Shown: positions 14,895 to 24,876 of the stretch, in pieces
Layout: each line of letters starts with the position of its first letter
Position numbering within the stretch: position 1 is the first letter of the stretch
Assembly (NCBI RefSeq): GCF_000423405.1
Contig: NZ_AUHX01000001.1
Coordinates: forward strand, 496,001 to 560,000
Source: Mesonia mobilis DSM 19841
GTDB lineage: Bacteria > Bacteroidota > Bacteroidia > Flavobacteriales > Flavobacteriaceae
DNA: 64,000 nt
Reading direction: 5' to 3'
Position numbers and translations under genes: made by a program
Notes under the pieces: model-generated
The model's input: the letters and a program-made list of their open reading frames with translations, nothing else
Databases searched by the model: none
What the model was told of the DNA's origin: nothing

Positions 14895-14973
14895 ACATTT
14901 TTACGCAACCACTTTTATTATTTTAATTCGATACTGAAATAAATTTCAGTATGATTATTTTGTTCATTCTTGC

Positions 14974-15000
14974 GTCATCTCGGACTTGATCCGGGATCAT
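14974..15000. repeat. Palindromic repeat, type A (copy 3)
   Basis: Core ctcggacttgatccggga, truncated after gggatca. It ends 11 bases past the stop of the last gene of the his transcript and may act there as an mRNA 3' hairpin. Confidence 0.75.
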
Positions 15001-15011
15001 TAAGTAAATTG

Positions 15012-15653
15012 TTACAACCGATCTTGAATAAATAACAACAAATCACCCTCTTGAAAACTTACGGTTGCCCGATTTTCTGTGATCGTATTTCTGGTTCCTA
15101 TTCGGGAAATAATGCTGAAATTCTCGTTTACTAACGGATATTTGACTCCGCTAGAAGTGATATTTTTCGCTTCGGGAAAAGGAAATAAAGAGAAAATTTC
15201 ATCTTGAAATCCTAAGATTTCGTTTTCATTTTCAGCAAAGAAGTAAACCCCAAAATCGTCGAAACAACGAATTTCGATTTCATTTTTATGTTTGAGCATC
15301 GAAGTTAAATTTCCTAGAAAATGATCTTGCTCCAAACCGCTACAACCAAAAACCGAAACGCTTTTAAAACCTTCGTCAATAATGATTCGTAAAGCTTTTT
15401 CGAAATCGGTCGCATTTTGATCTGGAGTTTCAATGACCTTTACTTCCGAAGAAATTTCAGCCATAGAAATTGAGTCAAAATCACCGGAAACCACATCGGG
15501 TTGAATATCTACATCTACTAAATTTTGGTAAGCGCCATCGGTACAAAATACTTTTTGAAACTGAGCAATATCGGGAATTTTCTGCGGAAACTGACCGTTG
15601 ATAAACAATACTACTTCACTTTCAAACTTGTAATTTTCTCGATGTATTTGCAT
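15012..15653 (-). CDS. Thiamine diphosphokinase
   Basis: Transfers pyrophosphate from ATP to thiamine to give the cofactor thiamine diphosphate. Family marks are CTDGAYQNL near residue 35, SGDFDSIS near 57 (Asp-rich nucleotide site), and DQNATDFEKALR near 78. The C-terminal beta-sandwich ends in GDLLLFIQ. Length 213 is typical. Its ATG shares a base with the hisIE stop (TAATG-type overlap), so it is translated from the his transcript although its pathway differs. It would then also be under the his attenuator, which is an inference. Confidence 0.88.
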   Translation of the reverse strand: MQIHRENYKFESEVVLFINGQFPQKIPDIAQFQKVFCTDGAYQNLVDVDIQPDVVSGDFDSISMAEISSEVKVIETPDQNATDFEKALRIIIDEGFKSVSVFGCSGLEQDHFLGNLTSMLKHKNEIEIRCFDDFGVYFFAENENEILGFQDEIFSLFPFPEAKNITSSGVKYPLVNENFSIISRIGTRNTITENRATVSFQEGDLLLFIQDRL

Positions 15654-16249
15654 TAATTTCTGTTTTCTAACACCTTTACGATATCGTTGAGTTGATATCC
15701 TTTAGCATTCAGCAAAATTAAATAATGAAACAACAAATCTGCCGATTCATTTAAAAATAAATCTTCGTTATCGTCTTTGGCTTCAATCACAACTTCCACC
15801 GCTTCTTCCCCTACTTTTTGCGCTATTTTATTGATTCCTTTTTCAAAAAGTGAAGCGACATAACTTTTCTCTGCCGACGATTGATTTTTTCGGTTTTCAA
15901 TGATCTGTTCTAATTCAGAAATAAAGCCATAATCTTGTTTATTTTCTTCTTGCCAACACGTATCAGTTCCTTTGTGACAAACCGGACCCTCTGGATTTAC
16001 GTGAATTAAAAGCGTGTCGTTATCGCAATCTAATTTAATATCGACCAGGTTTAGAAAATTACCACTCTCCTCGCCTTTTGTCCATAAACGTTGCTTGCTT
16101 CGGCTATAAAAGGTGACTTTTTTGGTTTGATTGGTTTTGAGAAAAGCTTCTTCATTCATATATCCCAACATGAGGACTTTCATCGTTTTCGCATCCTGAA
16201 TAATCGCAGGTACGAGTCCGTCTTTGTTTTTACTAAAATCTATGTTCAT
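15653..16249 (-). CDS. hisIE: Bifunctional phosphoribosyl-AMP cyclohydrolase / phosphoribosyl-ATP pyrophosphatase
   Basis: Catalyses steps 2 and 3 of histidine synthesis. The N-terminal HisI domain (1-105) shows VLMLGYMNEEAF, the metal-binding DCDNDTLL and the Cys pair in GPVCHKGTDTCW. The C-terminal HisE domain (110-198) has the helical EEAVEVVIEAK and ESADLLFHYLILL pyrophosphatase motifs. Length 198 is standard for the fusion. It is the last his gene, and its stop overlaps the next start by one base. Confidence 0.95.
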   Translation of the reverse strand: MNIDFSKNKDGLVPAIIQDAKTMKVLMLGYMNEEAFLKTNQTKKVTFYSRSKQRLWTKGEESGNFLNLVDIKLDCDNDTLLIHVNPEGPVCHKGTDTCWQEENKQDYGFISELEQIIENRKNQSSAEKSYVASLFEKGINKIAQKVGEEAVEVVIEAKDDNEDLFLNESADLLFHYLILLNAKGYQLNDIVKVLENRN

Positions 16250-16268
16250 CGTTTATAGGTTTAATTAT

Positions 16269-16290
16269 CTCTCGACTCCGTTTGAGGTTA
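16269..16290. repeat. Degenerate type B palindrome
   Basis: The sequence tctctcgactccgtttgagg resembles the type B unit (ctcgactccgctcgaag) in hisA and at 26945 but has decayed in the right arm. It is the first of three repeats in the hisF-hisIE gap. Confidence 0.45.
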
Positions 16291-16307
16291 TATTATCTTT
16301 TTATTAT

Positions 16308-16338
16308 CGTCATCCCAGACTTGATCTGGGATCTCATC
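16308..16338. repeat. Palindromic repeat, type A (copy 4)
   Basis: Core tcccagacttgatctggga, with compensating changes in both arms relative to the tcccgga version, so the hairpin is kept. Lies in the hisF-hisIE gap. Confidence 0.8.
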
Positions 16339-16370
16339 ATCATATTTTCTAAATATATTATCATCTGAAT

Positions 16371-16400
16371 GTGATGCTGAATCAAGTTCAGCATGACGTA
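16371..16400. repeat. Palindromic repeat, type D (copy 2)
   Basis: The compact form: gatgctgaa and ttcagcatg are perfect arms around tcaag. Ends 6 bases before the hisF stop codon; nearly identical to the copy at 18229. Confidence 0.8.
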
Positions 16401-16406
16401 TAAATA

Positions 16407-17162
16407 TTACATTCTCACTAAAATTGCTTCATCATTTAAAAATTCTTTCAGCTCTGGAATTGCGATTTCTTTAAAATGAAAAACACTTGCGGCCAAGGCT
16501 GCATCGGCTTTGCCTTCTTTAAACGTGTCTGCAAAATGTTGCATCCTTCCCGCACCACCCGATGCAATTATCGGAATATTTAAATCTTCAGAAAGCTTGG
16601 CTAAAGCTTCATTAGCAAAACCATTTTTAGTGCCGTCATTATTCATAGACGTAAATAAAGTTTCTCCGGCGCCGCGCTTTTCAACCTCTTTTGCCCAATC
16701 GAATAAATTAAGTTCTGTCGCAACTTTACCACCTACCAAATGCACTTTCCATTCGCCATCAACTTGTTTAGCGTCGATCGCGACCACTACACACTGACTC
16801 CCAAATTTAGCTGAAAGCTCATTGATAAGTTCTGGTCTTTTTACTGCGGAAGAATTTATGGAAACCTTATCGGCGCCGCATTGAAGCAACACATCTACAT
16901 CTTCTACAGAAGAAATTCCGCCGCCAACGGTAAACGGAATATTTACTTTTTCAGCAACGTGAAGTACTAAATTTGCTAAAGTTTTTCGCTTTTCTTCGGT
17001 GGCAGAAATATCTAGAAAAACCAACTCATCGGCACCATTTTCTGCATAGAACTGAGCCAATTCTACAGGATTTCCGGCATCACGTAAATCTAGAAAATTC
17101 ACACCTTTTACGGTTCGTCCGTTTTTGATATCTAAACAAGGGATAATTCTTTTGGTAAGCAT
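16407..17162 (-). CDS. hisF: Imidazole glycerol phosphate synthase, cyclase subunit
   Basis: Works with HisH: ammonia from HisH is channelled into the beta-barrel and PRFAR is split to imidazole glycerol phosphate and AICAR. Clear marks are [20 protein letters not shown] (catalytic Asp11), [13 protein letters not shown] near residue 80, [12 protein letters not shown] with the second catalytic Asp near 130, and [13 protein letters not shown] near 200. Length 251 is standard. It is separated from hisA by 230 bases carrying repeats, which is unusual for an operon. Confidence 0.96.
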
Positions 17163-17235
17163 TTTTTATAATTTACAGTTTACGGCTTTCAGCGACTAGC
17201 TTTTAGCACTTTTATTTTAATTTTTATCAAGAAAA

Positions 17236-17256
17236 CTCTCGTCTCCGCTCGAGTAG
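17236..17256. repeat. Degenerate type B palindrome
   Basis: actctcgtctccgctcgagt: inverted arms actc(t)cg / cgagt around a tctccg centre, similar to the type B unit. Located in the hisA-hisF gap. Confidence 0.4.
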
Positions 17257-17272
17257 GCATCAATTGTTTATT

Positions 17273-17304
17273 CGTCATCCCGGACTTGATCCGGGATCTC
17301 ATCC
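17273..17304. repeat. Palindromic repeat, type A (copy 5, consensus)
   Basis: The best copy: core tcccggacttgatccggga with perfect 7-base arms, flanked by cgtca and tctcatcc. Lies in the hisA-hisF gap. Confidence 0.85.
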
Positions 17305-17348
17305 TGTTATATTTTAAGTTATTAATTATCTAGATGAAGTTGAAATAA

Positions 17349-17373
17349 CACTTCGACAAGCTCAGTGTGACAA
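17349..17373. repeat. Palindromic repeat, type C (copy 1)
   Basis: cacttcgacaagctcagtg-tgacaa; arms cactt/gctcagtg are imperfect. A partly decayed relative overlaps the end of hisG at 22960. Confidence 0.55.
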
Positions 17374-17392
17374 TTCAGTTTTTTATTTCTAA

Positions 17393-18139
17393 TTAATGAC
17401 TTTCTAAAATATAGCTTTCTAATTGTTTTAAACTAATTCTGTTTTCGTAAATCGCTTTGCCAATGATGGTTCCTTCGCAACCCATTTCGGCAAGTTTTGG
17501 AAGTTCACCAAACGATGAAATTCCTCCGGAAGCGATCAATTTTATCTTCTCGACTCCGCTCGAAGTGACAGTTTCTGTCAAAATCTTTTTATACAATTCA
17601 AAAGAAGGACCTTCTAACATCCCGTCTTTACTAATATCGGTACAAATCACATATTGAATTCCTTTTTCTTGGTATTGCTGAATGAACGGAATCAAATTTT
17701 CTTCTGAATCTTCTTGCCAACCCGAAACCGCTATTTTTTCGTCATTTGCATCGGCGCCTAAAATGATTTTTTCACTTCCGTATTCTTGAATCCAATTACT
17801 AAAAAGCGATTTATTTTTTACAGCGATGCTTCCTCCGGTAATTTGCTGCGCTCCACTTTCAAAAGCGATACGAAGGTCTTCGTTAGATTTGAGTCCGCCA
17901 CCAAAATCAATCTTCAAACTCGTTTTAGAAGCGATTTCTTCTAAGATTTTATAGTTGACAATATGTTTGCTTTTCGCACCATCTAAATCGACTAAATGTA
18001 AATATTGAATTCCGTAGGCTTCAAATTGTTTAGCCACTTCGATTGGATTTTCATTATAAATTTTCTTGGTATTGTAATCGCCTTTAGAAAGTCGAACACA
18101 TTTGCCGTCTATAATATCTATGGCTGGGATGATTCTCAT
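17393..18139 (-). CDS. hisA: ProFAR isomerase
   Basis: Isomerises ProFAR to PRFAR in a beta/alpha barrel. Marks: [21 protein letters not shown] (catalytic Asp8), HLVDLDGAK near 48, FGGGLKS near 79, [19 protein letters not shown] near 165-182 (second Asp) and [10 protein letters not shown] at 200-209. Length 248 is slightly above usual. The excess lies at residues 190-198 (TVTSSGVEK), where the gene contains a perfect type B palindrome in frame, between the helix after DGMLEG and the strand KLIASGG. That loop lies near the phosphate-binding end but should tolerate insertion. ATG at 18139. Confidence 0.96.
17546..17570. repeat. Type B palindrome inside the hisA coding sequence
   Basis: 25 bases identical to an intergenic copy at 26945-26969 (core tctcgactccgctcga). 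In hisA it is read in frame on the minus strand as VTSSGVEK. Intergenic identity plus the extra residues relative to typical HisA point to insertion into a functional gene rather than chance similarity. Confidence 0.85.
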
Positions 18140-18168
18140 AATTAAGTTAGATTTCGTTTAGGTTTTTT

Positions 18169-18197
18169 GTCATTCCAGACTTGATCTGGGATCGCAT
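18169..18197. repeat. Palindromic repeat, type A (copy 6)
   Basis: gtcattccagacttgatctgggatcgcat; one mismatch in the stem. In the hisH-hisA gap, followed by a type D copy. Confidence 0.75.
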
Positions 18198-18228
18198 TAC
18201 ATATTTATTTAATTAACATATTCAGGAT

Positions 18229-18258
18229 GTGATGCTGAATCAAGTTCAGCATGACGTA
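18229..18258. repeat. Palindromic repeat, type D (copy 3)
   Basis: Perfect arms gatgctgaa and ttcagcatg around tcaag; ends about 30 bases before the hisH stop. Same A-then-D order as in the hisF-hisIE gap. Confidence 0.8.
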
Positions 18259-18289
18259 TTTTTGTTATTTCAGATTTAAATTAAACAGC

Positions 18290-18922
18290 TCAAATATTTA
18301 TATTCAAAAAGTTATCTAGAATTCTCTCTCCGGCTTGGCTGCTTTTTTCAGGGTGAAATTGTACTCCGAAAAAGTTATTTTTCTTTAAAGCGGAAGCATA
18401 AGCGACATCGTAAGTGGTTTCTGAGATCATCTCGTCACATTTTTCAGCATAAAAACTATGCACGAGGTACATAAATTCTTGTTCTTTTATACCTTGAAAT
18501 AATTCTGTTTGAAGATTAGAAATTTGATTCCACCCAATTTGTGGAACTTTCACTTGATTAGAGAAACGTTTTACTTCTACATCAAAAATCCCAAGCCCTT
18601 TTGTATCGCCTTCTTCAGAATGTTTACACATTAATTGCATCCCTAAACAAATACCCAAAACCGGTTGTGTTAACTCCGGAATGAGTTGATCTAATCCCGT
18701 AGCTTTTAATTTTTTCATCGCACTACTCGCCTCGCCTACACCGGGAAAAATTACTTTATCGGCTTGCTGAATTTCTTCTGGATCATCAGAAAGTTTAGCT
18801 TCAAAACCCAATCGCTGAATCGCAAATTTGATGCTCTGAATATTTCCTGCGCCGTAATTTATTATGACTAAGCCCCCTTTGTTTCCCCCCACGGGGGAAG
18901 ACTTTTGTTCTTTGCTTTTCAT
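18290..18922 (-). CDS. hisH: Imidazole glycerol phosphate synthase, glutamine amidotransferase subunit
   Basis: Class I glutaminase giving ammonia to HisF. The triad is visible: the nucleophilic Cys in LGICLGMQLM, and His and Glu in FGVQFHPEKS near the C-terminus. HisH proteins normally begin almost directly with the strand VIINYGAGN. Here that strand is preceded by about 18 extra residues from ATG 18922 (MKSKEQKSSPVGGNKGGL), and there is no Met just before it. The extra part is encoded by a C/G-rich inverted element at 18868-18904. A GTG at 18952 would extend it further but is less likely. Confidence 0.94.
   Translation of the reverse strand: MKSKEQKSSPVGGNKGGLVIINYGAGNIQSIKFAIQRLGFEAKLSDDPEEIQQADKVIFPGVGEASSAMKKLKATGLDQLIPELTQPVLGICLGMQLMCKHSEEGDTKGLGIFDVEVKRFSNQVKVPQIGWNQISNLQTELFQGIKEQEFMYLVHSFYAEKCDEMISETTYDVAYASALKKNNFFGVQFHPEKSSQAGERILDNFLNINI
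18868..18904. repeat. C/G-rich inverted element forming the HisH N-terminus
   Basis: Runs of C and G (gccccc, ttcccccc, gggggaag) stand out in AT-rich DNA and form the stem ttcccc / ggggaa. Read on the minus strand in frame it gives KSSPVGGNKGGL at the start of HisH. I believe similar elements are dispersed in other Bacteroidota genomes, but this window has only one copy. Confidence 0.55.
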
Positions 18923-18979
18923 TCCTTTATATTTCAAATTGGTATTTCTCACCGCTCACCTCTAAAAATCTCAGTTCTG

Positions 18980-20122
18980 CTAAAGCATTCCTTTGGTACT
19001 TGGTAAAATCATTTTTTCAGTATCACGCTTTACTGCGGCTTTAATAGCTTTGGCGAACGCTTTAAAAATGGCTTCAATTTTATGATGTTCATTTTTTCCT
19101 TCAGCCTTAATATTTAGGTTGGCTTTTGCACCATCTGAAAAAGATTTAAAGAAGTGATAAAACATTTCGGTGGGCATTTTCCCGATCATTTCTCGTTGAA
19201 AATCGGCTTCCCAAACTAACCAATTTCTGCCCCCAAAATCAATCACTACTTGCGCTAAACAATCGTCCATCGGTAAGCAAAAACCGTAACGTTCAATCCC
19301 TAATTTATTCCCTAAAGCTTGCTGAAAAACTTCACCTAAGGCAATCGCTGTATCTTCGATCGTGTGGTGTTCATCGACTTCTAGATCGCCTTTTACCCGA
19401 ATCTTTAAATCCATCTGACCGTGACGCGAAAGCTGATCTAACATATGATCGAAAAATGCAATTCCTGTATCGATCTCGCTTTTTCCGGTTCCATCTAGAT
19501 TTAACTCGATGTCAATATCGGTTTCGTTGGTTTTTCTTTTAATGCTTGACGTTCGATCCTTCAGCTTTAAAAACTCATAAATCTCTTTCCAAGAATCGGT
19601 TTGCAAAGCAATCGCATTTTCAACTTCTTCTTTTTTATTCTGAATTTCATCGGCACCTAAATCTACGTGGGTATTGATAAAAATTCCTTTGCCGCCAAAA
19701 TTGTAAGCAAATTCAACATCGGTTAAGCGGTCACCAACCATAAAAGAGTTTTTCAAATCGTATTTTCCCTCTTCTAAATAACCTTGCTGTTCTAGTAAAC
19801 CGATATTTGGTTTTCGTGTTTCCGCATTATCTTTTGCATAAGTCTTATCGATCAAGCTTTCATTAAATTTTGCACCTTCATTCGCAAAAACTTTTTCTAT
19901 AAAATGCTGAATAGGCCAAAAATCTTTCTCCGGAAATTCTTCTGTTCCCAAACCATCTTGATTAGTGACCATTACCAATTCGTAATCGAGTTCTTTGGCT
20001 ATTTTAGAAAGATAGAAAATCACTTCAGAATAAAATTCAAGCTTTTCCAAGCTATCGATTTGATAATCTTCCGGTTCGTGAATTAACGTTCCGTCTCGAT
20101 CTATAAATAAAACTTTTTTCAT
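18980..20122 (-). CDS. hisB: Bifunctional histidinol-phosphatase / imidazoleglycerol-phosphate dehydratase
   Basis: Performs steps 6 and 8. The N-terminal HAD phosphatase (1-165) has the nucleophile motif [14 protein letters not shown] and [12 protein letters not shown]. The C-terminal IGPD domain (about 190-380) has the manganese-binding histidines in [28 protein letters not shown] and [17 protein letters not shown]. Length 380 matches the fused form. It is 57 bases upstream of hisH, the tightest spacing between his genes apart from the hisIE-thiamine diphosphokinase overlap. Confidence 0.96.
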
Positions 20123-20137
20123 ATTATTTTCCTTATT

Positions 20138-20216
20138 CCTGCAAGGTTTTGAAAACCTTGTAGGTTTTTGTTATTCCTTGTTTTCTATACCTACAAGGTC
20201 GGAAAGACCTTGCAGG
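20138..20216. repeat. Two inverted copies of a type E palindrome
   Basis: cctgcaaggttttgaaaacc-ttgtagg (20138-20164) and cctacaaggtcggaaagacc-ttgcagg (20190-20216) are each palindromic. They are also inverse copies of each other, so the hisC-hisB transcript can form two small hairpins or one long one. Confidence 0.8.
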
Positions 20217-20239
20217 AAAATATTATCACTTCCTTTTAC

Positions 20240-21295
20240 CTAAATTTCTTTATTTAAAAATTTTAAAGCTTCTACTAGCTTTTTATTTTCTACTGAAGTA
20301 CCAATGGTAAAACGTAAAGTGTTTTCGCAAAGCGGTTGTGTGGTTCGGTTTCTAATCACAATCCCTTTTTCAATTAATTCTTGGTAACGTTCATTGGCAT
20401 CATCTACTTTTACCAAAACAAAATTCGCATCTGTCGGAAAAATCTCTTTGATGAATTTAATTTCCTGTAAAGCAATCATCAAGCGGTTTCTTTCTTCTAA
20501 AATGCTTTCTACTTCATCAAAAACTTCATCTACCGCCAAAACACGCTCCAAAGCTTTTTGCTGCGTTAATTCATTCACATTATAAGGCGGTTTGATCTTA
20601 TTTAGAACTGAAATAATTGCTGCGGAAGCATAGCAAATTCCCAATCGAATTCCTGCCATTCCGTAGGCTTTAGAAAGCGTTTGGGTAACGATTAAATTAG
20701 GATAAAGATCTACAAAACCGATCCAAGTTTCGTAAGAAGAAAAATCGATATACGCTTCATCGATGACTACAATTCCGTTGAAATTTTCTAAAATGGTTTT
20801 GATAGCGCGAGCATCGAAAGCGTTGCCTGTCGGATTATTTGGCGAACAAATAAAAAGTAATTTGGTTTGCTCGTCGACCAATTTTAATATCGATTTTATG
20901 TCTAATTGAAATTCTTCAGTGAGTAAAACTTCCCGATTTTCGATATTATTTATTCCGGTCAAGACCTTATACATTCCGTAAGTTGGCGGAAGCGTAATCA
21001 CATTATCAACACCGGGTTCACAAAAAGCGCGGAAGATTAAATCTAAAACTTCATCGCTACCATTACCAAATAAAATTTGCTCTTCCTTTACGTTCTTCAG
21101 TTTTGCTAAAGCCGATTTTAAATCACGCTGTTGCGGATCTGGATAACGATTCATGCCATTTTCATAGGGATTCTCATTAGCATCAAGAAAAATCATTTCT
21201 GTACCTGAAGCTTTATATTCATCACGCGCCGAAGAATATGGCTGTAATTTTTGTACGTTAGCTCGTACTAAATTTTGTAAATTAAATTCGCTCAT
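20240..21295 (-). CDS. hisC: Histidinol-phosphate aminotransferase
   Basis: PLP class I/II aminotransferase making histidinol phosphate from imidazole acetol phosphate and glutamate. Marks: FLDANENPYENG near residue 32, LFGNGSDEVLDLIFRAF near 75, CSPNNPTGNAF near 150, DEAYIDFS near 178, and the PLP Lys in TQTLSKAYGMAGIRLG near 208. The C-terminal Arg is in LRFTIGT. Length 351 is standard. ATG at 21295 (MSEFNLQNLVRANVQKL). Confidence 0.95.
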   Translation of the reverse strand: MSEFNLQNLVRANVQKLQPYSSARDEYKASGTEMIFLDANENPYENGMNRYPDPQQRDLKSALAKLKNVKEEQILFGNGSDEVLDLIFRAFCEPGVDNVITLPPTYGMYKVLTGINNIENREVLLTEEFQLDIKSILKLVDEQTKLLFICSPNNPTGNAFDARAIKTILENFNGIVVIDEAYIDFSSYETWIGFVDLYPNLIVTQTLSKAYGMAGIRLGICYASAAIISVLNKIKPPYNVNELTQQKALERVLAVDEVFDEVESILEERNRLMIALQEIKFIKEIFPTDANFVLVKVDDANERYQELIEKGIVIRNRTTQPLCENTLRFTIGTSVENKKLVEALKFLNKEI

Positions 21296-21358
21296 ATTTG
21301 TCCTTTTACCACTCGAATATTTTTGAGATGAAATTAATATCTCTATACTTTAGATGAT

Positions 21359-21410
21359 GTGATGCTGTCCCTCGACTCCGCTCGGGATGACCAATAAGTT
21401 CAGCATGACG
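21359..21410. repeat. Composite palindrome: type B-like unit nested in type D
   Basis: Type D arms gatgctg and ttcagcatgacga flank a complete inner palindrome, tccctcgactccgctcggga plus tgacc. The same composite occurs at 22864. It looks like one palindrome inserted into the loop of another. Confidence 0.7.
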
Positions 21411-21423
21411 AATGGTTAATTAT

Positions 21424-21455
21424 CGTCATCCCTGACTTGATCCGGGATCTCATCC
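21424..21455. repeat. Palindromic repeat, type A (copy 7)
   Basis: cgtcatccctgacttgatcc-gggatctcatcc; one mismatch in the stem. Ends 6 bases before the hisD stop codon. Confidence 0.8.
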
Positions 21456-21461
21456 TGATTA

Positions 21462-22745
21462 TTATTCTAAACTCTTTAACCTTAAGCTTACAGCATTTTT
21501 ATGCGCTTGTAAACCTTCTGCTTCTGCCATTAATTCAATTGTTTTTCCAATAGATTTAATTCCCGTTTCATTAATTTTCTGAAAGGTCATACTCTTTTGA
21601 AAACTGTCCAAATTCACTCCGCTATATTGTTTAGCGTAAGCATTTGTGGGTAACGTATGGTTGGTTCCTGAAGCGTAATCTCCCGCACTTTCAGGTGTGT
21701 AATTGCCAATAAAAACTGAACCTGCATTTTGAATTCCGTTGACAAAAAATTCTTCATTTTTTGCGACTACAATAAAATGTTCCGGAGCATATTGATTGAT
21801 CAATTGTAAAGCGATTTCATCATTTTCAACTAAAATTAATTTTGAATTTTCAATGGCTTTTTCTGCAATAGCTTTTCTCGGTAATTCTTTTAGTTGCTGC
21901 TGAATTTTTTCTTCAACTTCTTTTAAAATATCTTCAGAAATAGTGACCAAAATCACCTGACTATCGGCTCCGTGTTCTGCTTGCGAAAGTAAATCTGAAG
22001 CGACAAAGCTTGCGTTAGCAGTTTTATCTGCAAACACCAATAATTCTGAAGGTCCTGCCGGCATATCGATCGCGACATTAAATCTTGTGGCTAGTTGTTT
22101 GGCCACCGTTACAAATTGATTACCCGGACCAAAAATTTTATAAACCTGCGGAATGCTTTCCGTACCAAAAGTTAATCCTGCAATGGCTTGAATACCGCCA
22201 ACTTTAAAGATTTTGGTGACTCCGCATAAATTTGCAGTGTACAAAATAGCCGGATGGATATTGCCTTTTTTATCTGGTGGCGTGCATAAAACAATTTCTT
22301 TACAACCTGCTAATTGCGCCGGAACTGCCAACATTAATATAGTTGAAAACAAAGGTGCAGAACCACCGGGAATATATAATCCCACTTTTTGAATCGGCCG
22401 TTTTTCTTGCCAGCATTTTACTCCGTTTTGCGTTTCAACTTCAACTCGATCGGTTTTTTGAGCAGCGTGAAATTTAGTGATATTCTCTTTCGCTAATTGA
22501 ATAGCTTCTTTTAATTCTGCTGAAATTTCTTTTTCTGCTTGCTGAATTTCTTCCGAAGAAACTTCTATATTTTTAATCACGATCCCATCAAATAAACTCG
22601 TGTATTTTTCGATAGCCTGATCACCTTTAGATCTTACTTCTGTAAAGATTTCGTTTACCGTTGCTTCAATATCATCTACCGTTTGCGTGGGGCGTTTTAA
22701 AACTTCTTCCCAGTTTTTTGATGATGGATTTTTTATGATTTTCAT
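21462..22745 (-). CDS. hisD: Histidinol dehydrogenase
   Basis: Two-step NAD-dependent oxidation of histidinol to histidine, the last step of the pathway. The conserved central block VGLYIPGGSAPLFSTILMLAVPAQLAGC (near 125-150) is present, as are IFGPGNQFVTVAKQ (near 225), the zinc and catalytic region SQAEHGADSQVILVT (near 265) and GDYASGTNHTLPT (near 365). Length 427 is standard. Separated from hisG by 233 bases with four palindromic repeats. Confidence 0.96.
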   Translation of the reverse strand: MKIIKNPSSKNWEEVLKRPTQTVDDIEATVNEIFTEVRSKGDQAIEKYTSLFDGIVIKNIEVSSEEIQQAEKEISAELKEAIQLAKENITKFHAAQKTDRVEVETQNGVKCWQEKRPIQKVGLYIPGGSAPLFSTILMLAVPAQLAGCKEIVLCTPPDKKGNIHPAILYTANLCGVTKIFKVGGIQAIAGLTFGTESIPQVYKIFGPGNQFVTVAKQLATRFNVAIDMPAGPSELLVFADKTANASFVASDLLSQAEHGADSQVILVTISEDILKEVEEKIQQQLKELPRKAIAEKAIENSKLILVENDEIALQLINQYAPEHFIVVAKNEEFFVNGIQNAGSVFIGNYTPESAGDYASGTNHTLPTNAYAKQYSGVNLDSFQKSMTFQKINETGIKSIGKTIELMAEAEGLQAHKNAVSLRLKSLE

Positions 22746-22784: not shown

Positions 22785-22805
22785 AATTCTATTTTTTAAT
22801 TCTTA

Positions 22806-22836
22806 GTTATCCCGGACTTGATCCGGGATCTCATCC
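22806..22836. repeat. Palindromic repeat, type A (copy 8)
   Basis: Perfect core tcccggacttgatccggga, identical in the stem to the copy at 17273. In the hisG-hisD gap. Confidence 0.8.
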
Positions 22837-22863
22837 TACTATCTCTAATTCTATATTGTTGAT

Positions 22864-22915
22864 GTGATGCTGTCCCTCGACTCCACTCGGGATGACCTAG
22901 AAGTTCAGCATTACA
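22864..22915. repeat. Composite palindrome: type B-like unit nested in type D (second copy)
   Basis: Same structure as 21359: gatgctg, inner tccctcgactccactcggga, then ttcagcattac. Differences from the first copy are a few point changes, so the two come from one composite. Confidence 0.7.
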
Positions 22916-22959: not shown

Positions 22960-22984
22960 CACTTCGACAGACTCAATTTTACAA
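22960..22984. repeat. Decayed type C palindrome overlapping the hisG stop
   Basis: 20 of 25 positions match the type C copy at 17349. The stop codon and last sense codon of hisG lie within its right end. Confidence 0.45.
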
Positions 22985-23830
22985 TACCATTTTTTCTATT
23001 GGGCAAATAAGAATTCCTTCGGCGCCGTTAGTTTTTAACTCGTCGATTACATCCCAAAAAGTTTCTTCATTAATTACAGAATGTAGTGAACTCCAACCTT
23101 CTTTTGCTAATGGCAACACCGTCGGACTCTTCATTCCCGGTAAAATCTCGATGATTTTATCGAGCTTATCTTTAGGAGCATTCAGCAATACATATTTTGA
23201 GGTTCTCGCTTTTAAAACCGACTGGATCCTAAATAAAAGTTTGTCTAAAATCTGATTGGCTTCCGCAGAAATTTGTGGCGAAACCGCTAAAACCGCTTCA
23301 CTTTTTAAAATTTGCTCAACTTCTTTTAAATTGTTTTTGAATAAAGTGCTTCCGCTGGAAACGATATCGACAATTGCATCTGCCAAGCCTATATTCGGAG
23401 CGATTTCTACCGAACCGGAAATTTTGTGTAATTCTGCGTTGATTCCTTTTTCAGCTAAAAAATTCTTGACGGTATTGGGATAAGAAGTGGCTATTTTCTT
23501 TCCTTCTAGATCTTGTAAGCTATTAAAATCATTTTCTTTAGGAACCGCCACCGAAACCCGACATTTAGAAAATCCTAGCTTCTCTACGATTTTTAGATCT
23601 TCGCCTTTTTCAACTAAAAGATTTTCTCCTAAAATAGCTATATCTACCACGCCATCTCTTAAATACTGCGGAATATCGCCGTTTCTTAAGTATAAAACTT
23701 CTAACGGAAAATTACGAGAAGTCGTTTTTAACTGATCTTTTCCGTTATCGATATAAATACCGGCTTCTTTTAAAATTTTAATGGAATCGTCGTGTAAACG
23801 TCCCGATTTTTGAATAGCAATTTTTAACAT
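22979..23830 (-). CDS. hisG: ATP phosphoribosyltransferase, long form
   Basis: First and committed step: ATP plus PRPP to phosphoribosyl-ATP. The 283 residues indicate the long HisG with catalytic domains 1 and 2 (1-205) and a C-terminal ACT-like regulatory domain (210-283, ending ILICPIEKMVL) that binds histidine for feedback inhibition, so no HisZ is needed. DAIVDIVSSGSTLFKNNL near 152-170 is the PRPP loop. It is the first structural gene, 107 bases after the leader peptide stop, and the attenuator hairpin lies between them. Confidence 0.96.
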   Translation of the reverse strand: MLKIAIQKSGRLHDDSIKILKEAGIYIDNGKDQLKTTSRNFPLEVLYLRNGDIPQYLRDGVVDIAILGENLLVEKGEDLKIVEKLGFSKCRVSVAVPKENDFNSLQDLEGKKIATSYPNTVKNFLAEKGINAELHKISGSVEIAPNIGLADAIVDIVSSGSTLFKNNLKEVEQILKSEAVLAVSPQISAEANQILDKLLFRIQSVLKARTSKYVLLNAPKDKLDKIIEILPGMKSPTVLPLAKEGWSSLHSVINEETFWDVIDELKTNGAEGILICPIEKMVL

Positions 23831-23871
23831 TTTTGATTAAAATAAAGTTTGAGCAGTTAAATTTAGGCAAC

Positions 23872-23904
23872 AAAAAACCCGTTTGAAACTACTCAAACGG
23901 GTTT
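23872..23904 (-). terminator. his attenuator terminator hairpin
   Basis: On the minus strand AAACCCGTTTGA (23904-23893) pairs perfectly over 12 bases with TCAAACGGGTTT (23886-23875), loop of 6, followed by TTTTTTG. It lies between the His-rich leader and hisG, where it would stop transcription of the whole operon when histidine is plentiful. Confidence 0.9.
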
Positions 23905-23951
23905 GTAAATTATCTTTGAATTTCATCAAATACATAATCACCTCGCTTGAG
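23892..23951 (-). promoter_or_regulatory. Probable antiterminator pairing of the his attenuator
   Basis: CTCAAGCGAG (23951-23942, the last leader codons) can pair with CCCGTTTGAG (23901-23892, the 5' arm of the terminator): eight Watson-Crick pairs, one G-U and one mismatch. A ribosome stalled at the His codons would leave this segment free and so block the terminator. A ribosome reaching the leader stop would cover it. The pairing is read from sequence; the mechanism is inferred from classic his attenuation. Confidence 0.7.
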
Positions 23952-23994
23952 CGTGGAAGTGAATATGATGGTGATGTAAATTAATTTGTCTCAT
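23938..23994 (-). CDS. hisL: Histidine operon leader peptide
   Basis: An 18-residue ORF, MRQINLHHHHIHFHAQAR, with six His codons (CAT CAC CAT CAT, then CAC and CAC) in eight codons. It ends in TGA at 23938, 33 bases before the terminator hairpin and 107 bases upstream of hisG. Its only likely job is to sense charged tRNA-His by ribosome stalling. A promoter -7 box ends only 8 bases before the ATG, so the message probably has almost no 5' untranslated leader. It is too short for ordinary gene finders. Confidence 0.93.
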   Translation of the reverse strand: MRQINLHHHHIHFHAQAR

Positions 23995-24001
23995 TATTTT
24001 A

Positions 24002-24009
24002 CAAACTTA
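24002..24009 (-). promoter_or_regulatory. -7 box of the his operon promoter
   Basis: TAAGTTTG on the minus strand fits the Bacteroidota TAnnTTTG consensus exactly. A T-rich stretch (ATTTTTTC) lies about 19 bases upstream in place of a clear TTG. Transcription would start within a few bases of the leader ATG at 23994. Confidence 0.65.
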
Positions 24010-24057
24010 TAAATTATTCAGAAGAAAAAATGAATTTTAGAAAAATTTAATATTCGT

Positions 24058-24876
24058 CTAATTGTTACCTAAAATTATTGGTAGTCCTTCATCGCCGCTC
24101 CCAACTACGATTACTTTAGCATTATTCGATTTTGAAAGTTCGACGGTTGCCTGGATTCCTTTTTCTTTTAAAACTTTATCGGTTAACGACTGACTCAAAA
24201 TTGTATTTGCTCTCGCTTTACCTTCGGCCTCAATTTTTTGTCGTTCAGCTTCTTTTTGTGCTTTAGTCAATCTAAATTCGTACTCTAAAGATTCTTGCTC
24301 TTGACGTAATTTACGTTCAATCGCGTCTTTAATAGTCGTTGGCAAAGAAACATCTCTTACTAAAATTTCATTTACTTGTACGTATTGGTTTTTTAGTAAA
24401 AGCTGTGTTTCTTCTAAAATTTCTTTTTGAATAGCTTCTCGCTTACTGGCATATAATTGCTCAGGACTGTAACGACCAACTACTGCTCTAGCGGCAGATC
24501 TAACTGCGGGTTTTAATAATCGTTCGATGTATTTTTCTCCTTTTTCTTTATGAAGTTTTCCTAAATCGTCATATTTAGGCTGAAACCAAGTAGATGCATC
24601 CAGTTTAATTTCTAGTCCGTTAGAACTTAACACCTGCATTTTCTCTTCTAAAGATTGTTGCCGTACTTCGTAAACAAAAACACTGTTCCACGGAGCAACA
24701 AAATGAAAACCTTCGCCCATTGGTGGTTCGTCGGTCACAACACCGCCATCGAGCGTTCTATATAAAACGCCGCCTTCACCAGAACCAATGGTTACTGTTG
24801 CTTTAAATAAAATAATTAAAAATACGATCCCGATGATGATCACGGGAATTAATGCTTTTGGAAATTTGTTGTTCAT
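24058..24876 (-). CDS. Prohibitin (SPFH/Band 7) family protein
   Basis: One N-terminal transmembrane helix (about 10-26) anchors a Band 7 domain (30-190, with GGVLYRTLDGGVVTDEPPMGEGFHFVAPW), followed by a charged coiled coil (185-235). Prohibitins form large ring-shaped membrane assemblies that organise lipids and proteases. Length 272 is normal. The gene is 9 bases downstream of the VWA-like gene on the same strand, so the two probably share a transcript. It ends about 60 bases from the his leader region. Confidence 0.9.
   Translation of the reverse strand: MNNKFPKALIPVIIIGIVFLIILFKATVTIGSGEGGVLYRTLDGGVVTDEPPMGEGFHFVAPWNSVFVYEVRQQSLEEKMQVLSSNGLEIKLDASTWFQPKYDDLGKLHKEKGEKYIERLLKPAVRSAARAVVGRYSPEQLYASKREAIQKEILEETQLLLKNQYVQVNEILVRDVSLPTTIKDAIERKLRQEQESLEYEFRLTKAQKEAERQKIEAEGKARANTILSQSLTDKVLKEKGIQATVELSKSNNAKVIVVGSGDEGLPIILGNN

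Follow-up and report, generated by a model that had tools for sequence, protein, structure and literature searches.

A very probable ribosome-mediated attenuator upstream of hisG in Mesonia mobilis, with an antiterminator strand in the last codons of its leader

How might the histidine operon be controlled in a flavobacterium? The question is raised by the DNA just upstream of hisG in Mesonia mobilis DSM 19841, within the 64,000-nucleotide stretch that we analyzed (contig NZ_AUHX01000001.1, positions 496,001 to 560,000; here called the window, and numbered from its first letter). A first-pass annotation had described an 18-codon minus-strand ORF with six His codons in eight, a 12-bp perfect hairpin with a T-run between this ORF and hisG, and a competing pairing of nine of ten bases, and had likened the arrangement to the textbook layout of ribosome-stalling attenuation. 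Here, we conclude from the sequence and its conservation that the region very likely controls the histidine operon as a ribosome-mediated transcription attenuator. Its parts and the genes behind it are as follows.

24009..24002 (24002..24009), minus strand: −7 promoter box TAAGTTTG (TAnnTTTG in the Bacteroidota consensus), its end 7 nt ahead of the leader ATG
23994..23938 (23938..23994), minus strand: leader peptide ORF MRQINLHHHHIHFHAQAR, 18 codons, stop included in the coordinates, conserved in relatives
23965..23976, minus strand: His codons 7-10 (CAT CAC CAT CAT), the conserved, putative sensing run, recognized by the position of the first HH and its distance to strand 2
23940..23951, minus strand: strand 2, CTCAAGCGAGGT, 5′ strand of the antiterminator inside the last leader codons, pairing with strand 3 and beating nearly all synonymous recodings
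23903..23937, minus strand: linker between strands 2 and 3, a small hairpin capping the antiterminator, examined by linker shuffles and folding
23892..23902, minus strand: strand 3, ACCCGTTTGAG, common to antiterminator and terminator, with the invariant octamer CCGTTTGA
23904..23875 (23875..23904), minus strand: intrinsic terminator hairpin (strands 3:4), recognized by pairing, fold, and conservation, with its T-run at 23877-23872
22979..23830, minus strand: hisG (TIGR00070), the first gene past the terminator
15653..22745, minus strand: hisD, hisC, hisB (bifunctional), hisH, hisA, hisF, and hisIE (NCBIfam)
15012..15653, minus strand: thiamine diphosphokinase (TIGR01378), the final gene of the row, with a one-base overlap with hisIE

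The leader ORF was reread at 23994..23938 and is as the annotation had it, with six His within eight residues of MRQINLHHHHIHFHAQAR. Among the 2,916 start codons of the window that open frames of 6 to 40 amino acids (both strands, nested starts counted apart), it is the sole case with more than three His per eight residues, and the fold of the leader region has an energy of −37.1 (z −6.1). The window's HisG shares 98% identity with its counterpart in Mesonia sp. UWMA-0090, and for comparison we took the 80 best of 509 HisG relatives in GTDB genomes. In 79 of these 80, hisG is preceded by a leader that begins with ATG and carries three or more His within nine residues; the remaining relative, L005, has a TTG-started leader with two His (HHYY). 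The relatives are mutually related, so that the counts given for them are not of independent events. The annotation had named a leader and His run missing from close relatives as the finding that would tell against it, and this is not what the genomes show. With the window, the set comprises 81 leaders, or 71 distinct ones once 10 identical leaders are dropped (the window's leader is that of L002), and the usual form is M(R/K)xxx(T/L)HHH(H)...QAR. The first HH falls at codon 7 in 68 of the 71 distinct leaders, and 22 or 25 nt separate it from strand 2 in 70. A second ORF, opening behind GAGGTGA in the window, was discarded, as the GAGG is often GAGC or GAGA in the alignment and the frame, judged by eye, is soon closed in several relatives.

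The hairpin that follows the leader is also as first described, with 12 Watson-Crick pairs to which a closing G-U adds a 13th, followed by six T at 23877..23872. Folded alone, it reaches −17.6 kcal/mol (z −5.0), and it ends 44 nt before hisG. It is the one structure returned by RNAalifold on a MAFFT alignment of the family leaders; of its 11 consensus pairs, none is broken in any of the 71 distinct leaders and 3 show two-sided changes, so that compensatory evidence of the kind the annotation had called for does exist for the terminator. A hairpin this good could serve merely to terminate the upstream gene at 24058-24876, which lies on the same strand and ends 63 nt before the leader ATG, the His-rich ORF then being a chance reading of the spacer. 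This reading leaves unexplained why 79 of 80 relatives have the ORF and its His run at a like distance from the terminator, why a His leader recurs across the class, as described below, and why a promoter box lies between the upstream gene and the leader, and we regard it as extremely improbable.

An attenuator requires an alternative to the terminator, and the pairing of CTCAAGCGAG with CCCGTTTGAG stands as first reported, at nine of ten pairs, one of them G-U. If one bulged A is allowed, it extends to 11 pairs, CUCAAGCG-A-GGU of strand 2 with ACC-CGUUUGAG of strand 3, and this antiterminator, folded alone, has an energy of −19.1 kcal/mol (z −4.7). Ten of the 11 pairs are retained in 62 to 71 of the 71 distinct leaders, and the weakest (alignment columns 57/105) is retained in 51. 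Compensatory changes, which the annotation had proposed to look for here as well, amount to a single case, a C-G to T-A exchange at the terminal pair of one sequence, with no others among the 71. RNAalifold, run on the MAFFT alignment, did not return the antiterminator, probably because linker lengths differ, and we then used per-sequence folds, a synonymous-codon test, and linker shuffles. Because strand 3 hardly varies (all 71 distinct leaders share its octamer CCGTTTGA) and just one two-sided change was seen, we tested codon choice. Over the 71 leaders, the strand 2:3 duplex has a mean energy of −12.35 kcal/mol, whereas the full set of synonymous recodings of its four codons averages −6.62; the native strand 2 has a median rank of 2.1% among its recodings and lies within the best 5% in 53 leaders and the best 10% in 65. 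In a control that took the four codons from the first His, the median rank was 37.5%, and 0 of 71 leaders fell within 5%. The linker folds better than its shuffles across the 71 leaders (z −1.98 on average; in 43, no more than 5 of 100 shuffles equal it), and that of the window shows no significant excess over its shuffles (z −0.88, with 16 of 100 as good). Over the family, antiterminator and terminator are balanced, with a mean energy of −16.5 for both; in 29 of 71 leaders, the terminator is the stronger structure.

The codon test also bears on a reading in which the peptide itself is the product, for instance a His-rich metal-binding or trans-acting small protein, and the RNA pairing is secondary. 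His-rich peptides can bind metals, and a leader peptide with a function in trans has been published (PMC7298713). Against this, the tail of the peptide varies (QAR, QAS, QAW, or LAR) while the pairing of strand 2 is kept. In L006, L050, L053, and L064, the peptide is even shortened by a stop within strand 2, TAG replacing the CAG or CAA of the others, and the pairs are retained through G-U. Moreover, distant leaders are similar in little but the His run, and we consider it exceedingly unlikely that the peptide itself is the product.

Taken as an attenuator, then, the region would work as follows. RNA polymerase would start some 2 to 3 nt before the leader AUG, and a ribosome would load once the 5′ end emerges and translate the leader. 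When His-tRNA is scarce, the ribosome would stall at His codons 7-10, with its front edge upstream of strand 2, and strand 2 would pair with strand 3 immediately once the latter has been transcribed, blocking the terminator. When His-tRNA is ample, the ribosome would reach the stop and cover strand 2, strands 3 and 4 would pair, and transcription would stop at the T-run ahead of hisG, leaving a terminated leader RNA. If the front edge of the ribosome is assumed to lie 15 to 16 nt beyond where the P-site codon begins, the sensing codons are sited such that a ribosome stalled on them should leave strand 2 free and one that has finished the leader covers it. Modeled with this edge at 16 nt and before strand 4 is made, the probability of the 2:3 pairing averages 0.83 with a ribosome at the first His (0.99 in the window) and 0.86 with a ribosome at the third, and it is 0 by construction with a ribosome at the stop, since strand 2 is then masked. 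When no ribosome is present, the mean is 0.40, with 31 of the 71 leaders above 0.5. The window's value in this state is only 0.04 because its leader and linker can pair with each other when the ribosome is absent, which hints at a protector structure there, and the outcome in the absence of translation may thus differ among species. At equilibrium of the whole leader, the 2:3 probability exceeded 0.5 in 0 of 71 leaders in all three ribosome states tried (in the window, with a ribosome at His 7, the best fold has −28.2 kcal/mol, and −21.1 when 2:3 is forced), and we infer that the switch must be kinetic, decided while the RNA is still growing, as it is in classical attenuators. The self-folds of the ORF do not support a conserved first (1:2) hairpin: against synonymous recodings, their z averages −0.48, lies below −1.5 in 4 of 71 leaders, and is −0.83 in the window. 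Leader conservation, together with the comparative tests of both pairings, supports the textbook stalling layout that was first proposed.

The place where this transcript is predicted to start is itself unusual. The −7 box ends 7 nt before the leader ATG. In Flavobacterium johnsoniae a distance of 4 or 5 nt from box to start marks probable promoters (PMC6847099), and in F. psychrophilum the box lies at −12 to −5 (PMC9723704); from these spacings we predict a start at 23996-23997 and a leader 5′ UTR of 2 to 3 nt. This would belong to a rare class, given that 87% of those F. johnsoniae transcripts have leaders longer than 10 nt (PMC6847099) and that leaderless mRNAs make up 5.5% in F. psychrophilum (PMC9723704). 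Among the 81 family leaders, 57 have a TAnnTTT(G/A) box whose end is 7 to 9 nt from the ATG, which implies a near-leaderless leader mRNA; base-composition shuffles have such a box at 6 to 9 nt in 2.1% of cases. With G as the last base, the box is found in 28 of 81 leaders, against 0.4% of shuffles. Twelve of the 81 have no box within 45 nt, and another 12 have it elsewhere, ten of these 11 to 23 nt away. Within the window, 4 of 62 long-ORF starts have a box within 10 nt. Across the class, the distance in 71 leaders is at most 10 nt in 17, 11 to 20 nt in 27, and 21 to 37 nt in 11, the box being absent in 16; as judged from these box positions, short 5′ UTRs are common class-wide, and near-leaderless ones are not universal. 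A short 5′ end may allow the ribosome to load early enough for coupling to RNA polymerase.

How far does the arrangement reach beyond the family? A HisG match was found in 87 of 198 genomes drawn across the class (our own included). Of the 86 remaining genomes, we examined 83; G153, G161, and G178, with a weak match or one at a contig end, were left out. In the regions upstream of hisG, we scored ORFs of at most 40 codons within 300 nt by their His content in eight residues. At least three His occur in 71 of the 83 regions, compared with 3.9% of dinucleotide shuffles and 7 of 83 reverse strands, and at least four His in 61 of 83, compared with 0.1% and 0 of 83; L105, which was wrongly anchored, is one of the 12 misses. 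The device is thus not special to this organism, and the data suggest that a mechanism best known from enterobacteria is the usual his control in the sampled class. These distant leaders have little in common beyond the His run, and many terminators beyond the order are wholly unlike the family type, with the same layout. A simple finder, which misses mismatched hairpins and misread L041 (whose end was trimmed by hand for the alignment), recovered a strict terminator in 51 of the 71 class leaders. By our count from the listing, the 5′ arm of the terminator contains GGCTTACC or GGCTTGCC in 22 of these 51. The partner strands, GGTAAG-like, are supplied by the leader end, mostly at ORF nt ∼40 to 60, and a strand like CCGTTTGA or GTCTGA is kept in L133, L098, L111, and L149. 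The leader-terminator pairing reaches P ≤ 0.05 in only 25 of the 51 (14 of them better than 99% of shuffles), the remainder of the 51 being singly nonsignificant.

Of the 20 class leaders without a strict terminator, 19 (all but L102) were folded and inspected by eye. Ten have a hairpin and T-run (L085, L088, L089, L092, L094, L096, L100, L101, L104, and L136), two have a weak hairpin (L157 and L158), and no evident terminator was found in the other seven His leaders (L147, L155, L125, L135, L156, L159, and L162). As a side observation, L156, L159, and L162 (family f41) and L125 and L135 (family f16), with a His leader and no evident terminator, possibly have another mode of control. A few distant lineages, such as those five, do favor the view that the leader acts on hisG translation initiation or via Rho, instead of through intrinsic termination. 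We nevertheless find this view very unlikely: none of the 71 distinct family leaders has a broken terminator stem, and in the window the stem ends 44 nt before hisG. Outside the class, we examined 40 regions, chosen for spread from 78 genomes with a HisG match and scored for the His leader alone. Where HisG is 39 to 55% identical, a His leader is present in 19 of 25 regions; where it is at most 34% identical (L195-L209), a His leader was found in 0 of 15, so that the leader and the HisG type seem to be linked.

Downstream of the switch, nine ORFs follow the leader on the same strand (hisG, D, C, B, H, A, F, IE, and thiamine diphosphokinase), with gaps of 27 to 233 nt among the eight his genes. 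No other minus-strand hairpin with a T-run and more than 6 pairs was found in the nine-gene unit. The annotation had proposed that histidyl-tRNA supply controls the whole nine-gene transcript; if the nine genes do form one transcript, attenuation would reach them all. Of 4 other Mesonia genomes searched, 3 have thiamine diphosphokinase on the his contig; in L002, L003, and L004, it follows hisG at a distance of 7.5 to 8.2 kb, on the contig bearing the same number. It was not found in L006 or in one other genome of the genus, and in a search of 60 family genomes, the 4 others with a homologue had no hisIE in the fetched flanks. Since the kinase is attached in only some Mesonia, its possible control by histidine would be a local matter. 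The gaps of the operon also hold dispersed repeats, of which a palindromic one, GTCATCCCGGACTTGATCCGGGATC with its relatives, is present in 5 of the 7 his operon gaps and behind thiamine diphosphokinase; the palindromic repeats had no match in Rfam at an E value of ≤1.

14968-15010, 16303-16345, 17268-17310, 18163-18205, 21419-21461, and 22800-22842: copies of the palindromic repeat
21355-21409 and 22860-22914: a second repeat
20136-20218: an inverted pair in the hisC-hisB gap

Candidate leaders for other amino acids are found in the same genome, all on the minus strand, and count in favor of the attenuator reading.

G000:C2:411839-411895 (locus L221), minus strand: Trp leader MKILTVHTWWWNNLRKTS with a 13-pair terminator, preceding a chorismate-binding enzyme gene, presumably trpE
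G000:C2:266586-266654 (locus L220), minus strand: Ile/Leu/Val leader MKTNNNIVISIILLVIIIPIMS with a 13-pair terminator, preceding ilvD
G000:C1:284159-284260 (locus L219), minus strand: Thr/Ile-rich leader MIHSNNISLIFTEISTSGSIAISTITTITPFGV, preceding a homoserine dehydrogenase domain gene whose start reads like aspartokinase

The promoter box of the Trp leader, TATCTTTG, ends 5 nt before its ATG. At a glance, pairing of the strand 2 kind looks good for the ilv leader and weak for the trp leader, and a simple scan of the Thr/Ile-rich leader gave only a weak hairpin.

These observations lead us to a broader proposal, which we hold tentatively and with slightly less than even confidence: his attenuators of a common design, perhaps ancestral, would be found across the class and in other Bacteroidota classes, the ribosome loading without a Shine-Dalgarno sequence on a near-leaderless or very short 5′ end behind RNA polymerase, in a compact variant whose antiterminator strand is formed by the final leader codons themselves. 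If this is true, the persistence of the device would mean close transcription-translation coupling in Bacteroidota, whose mRNAs are without Shine-Dalgarno sequences (PMC6847099), and the leader offers a concrete and widely conserved target on which such coupling in mRNAs of this kind can be tested.

Vitreschak et al. reportedly predicted, in 2004, amino-acid attenuators in Bacteroidetes/Chlorobi also. Searched with Rfam at the gathering score, the whole window gave tRNA alone and neither a leader-peptide family nor a T-box; at an E value of ≤10, positions 23820-24080 gave no His leader or T-box, and Phe_leader (17.3 bits, with 55 needed) and Trp_leader (15.2, with 41 needed) scored far under their thresholds. 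The best sub-threshold match of the leader, L10_leader (30.6 bits, with 44 needed), was taken as chance. No similar DNA was found in phages. Among open-licence papers, we found no report on his attenuators of Bacteroidota, and a comparative study of his genes in the superphylum mentions attenuation for S. enterica and E. coli (PMC8305728). Leader-peptide attenuation in flavobacteria is already known in general terms: in Flavobacterium psychrophilum, of the same family, there are strong clues for it upstream of amino-acid biosynthesis operons, in a passage that names no his leader, the word "histidine" occurring 0 times in the main text (PMC9723704). In Bacteroides thetaiotaomicron, short ORFs in long 5′ UTRs are described as reminiscent of transcription attenuation leader peptides; a hypothetical gene serves as the example, the passages name no his leader, and "histidine" occurs 0 times (PMC7366714). 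The Bacteroid-trp RNA (RF01692) is a putative cis-regulatory RNA of Bacteroidetes, linked to trp by its name (PMC2864571), and has no match in the window.

A parallel to the predicted start comes from another phylum. In the actinobacterium Streptomyces lividans, attenuator peptides are transcribed leaderless, close to what we predict for the window leader, although those of S. lividans concern leu, trp, ilv, thr, and met and have mapped starts, whereas the start in the window is a prediction (PMC8079986). In its parts, the locus resembles enterobacterial hisL, in which, as in the window, the his operon is preceded by a short leader carrying a run of His (18 residues in hisL, seven His in a row among them [PMC3896937]) and one strand is common to terminator and antiterminator. 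It differs from hisL in that the 5′ strand of the antiterminator lies within the last leader codons, the self-folds do not support a conserved first hairpin, the predicted start is near-leaderless, the phylum is one whose mRNAs have no Shine-Dalgarno sequences (PMC6847099), and the leader has no match to the Rfam His leader. The features worth following are the near-leaderless start, the antiterminator strand inside the ORF, and the wide spread of the arrangement.
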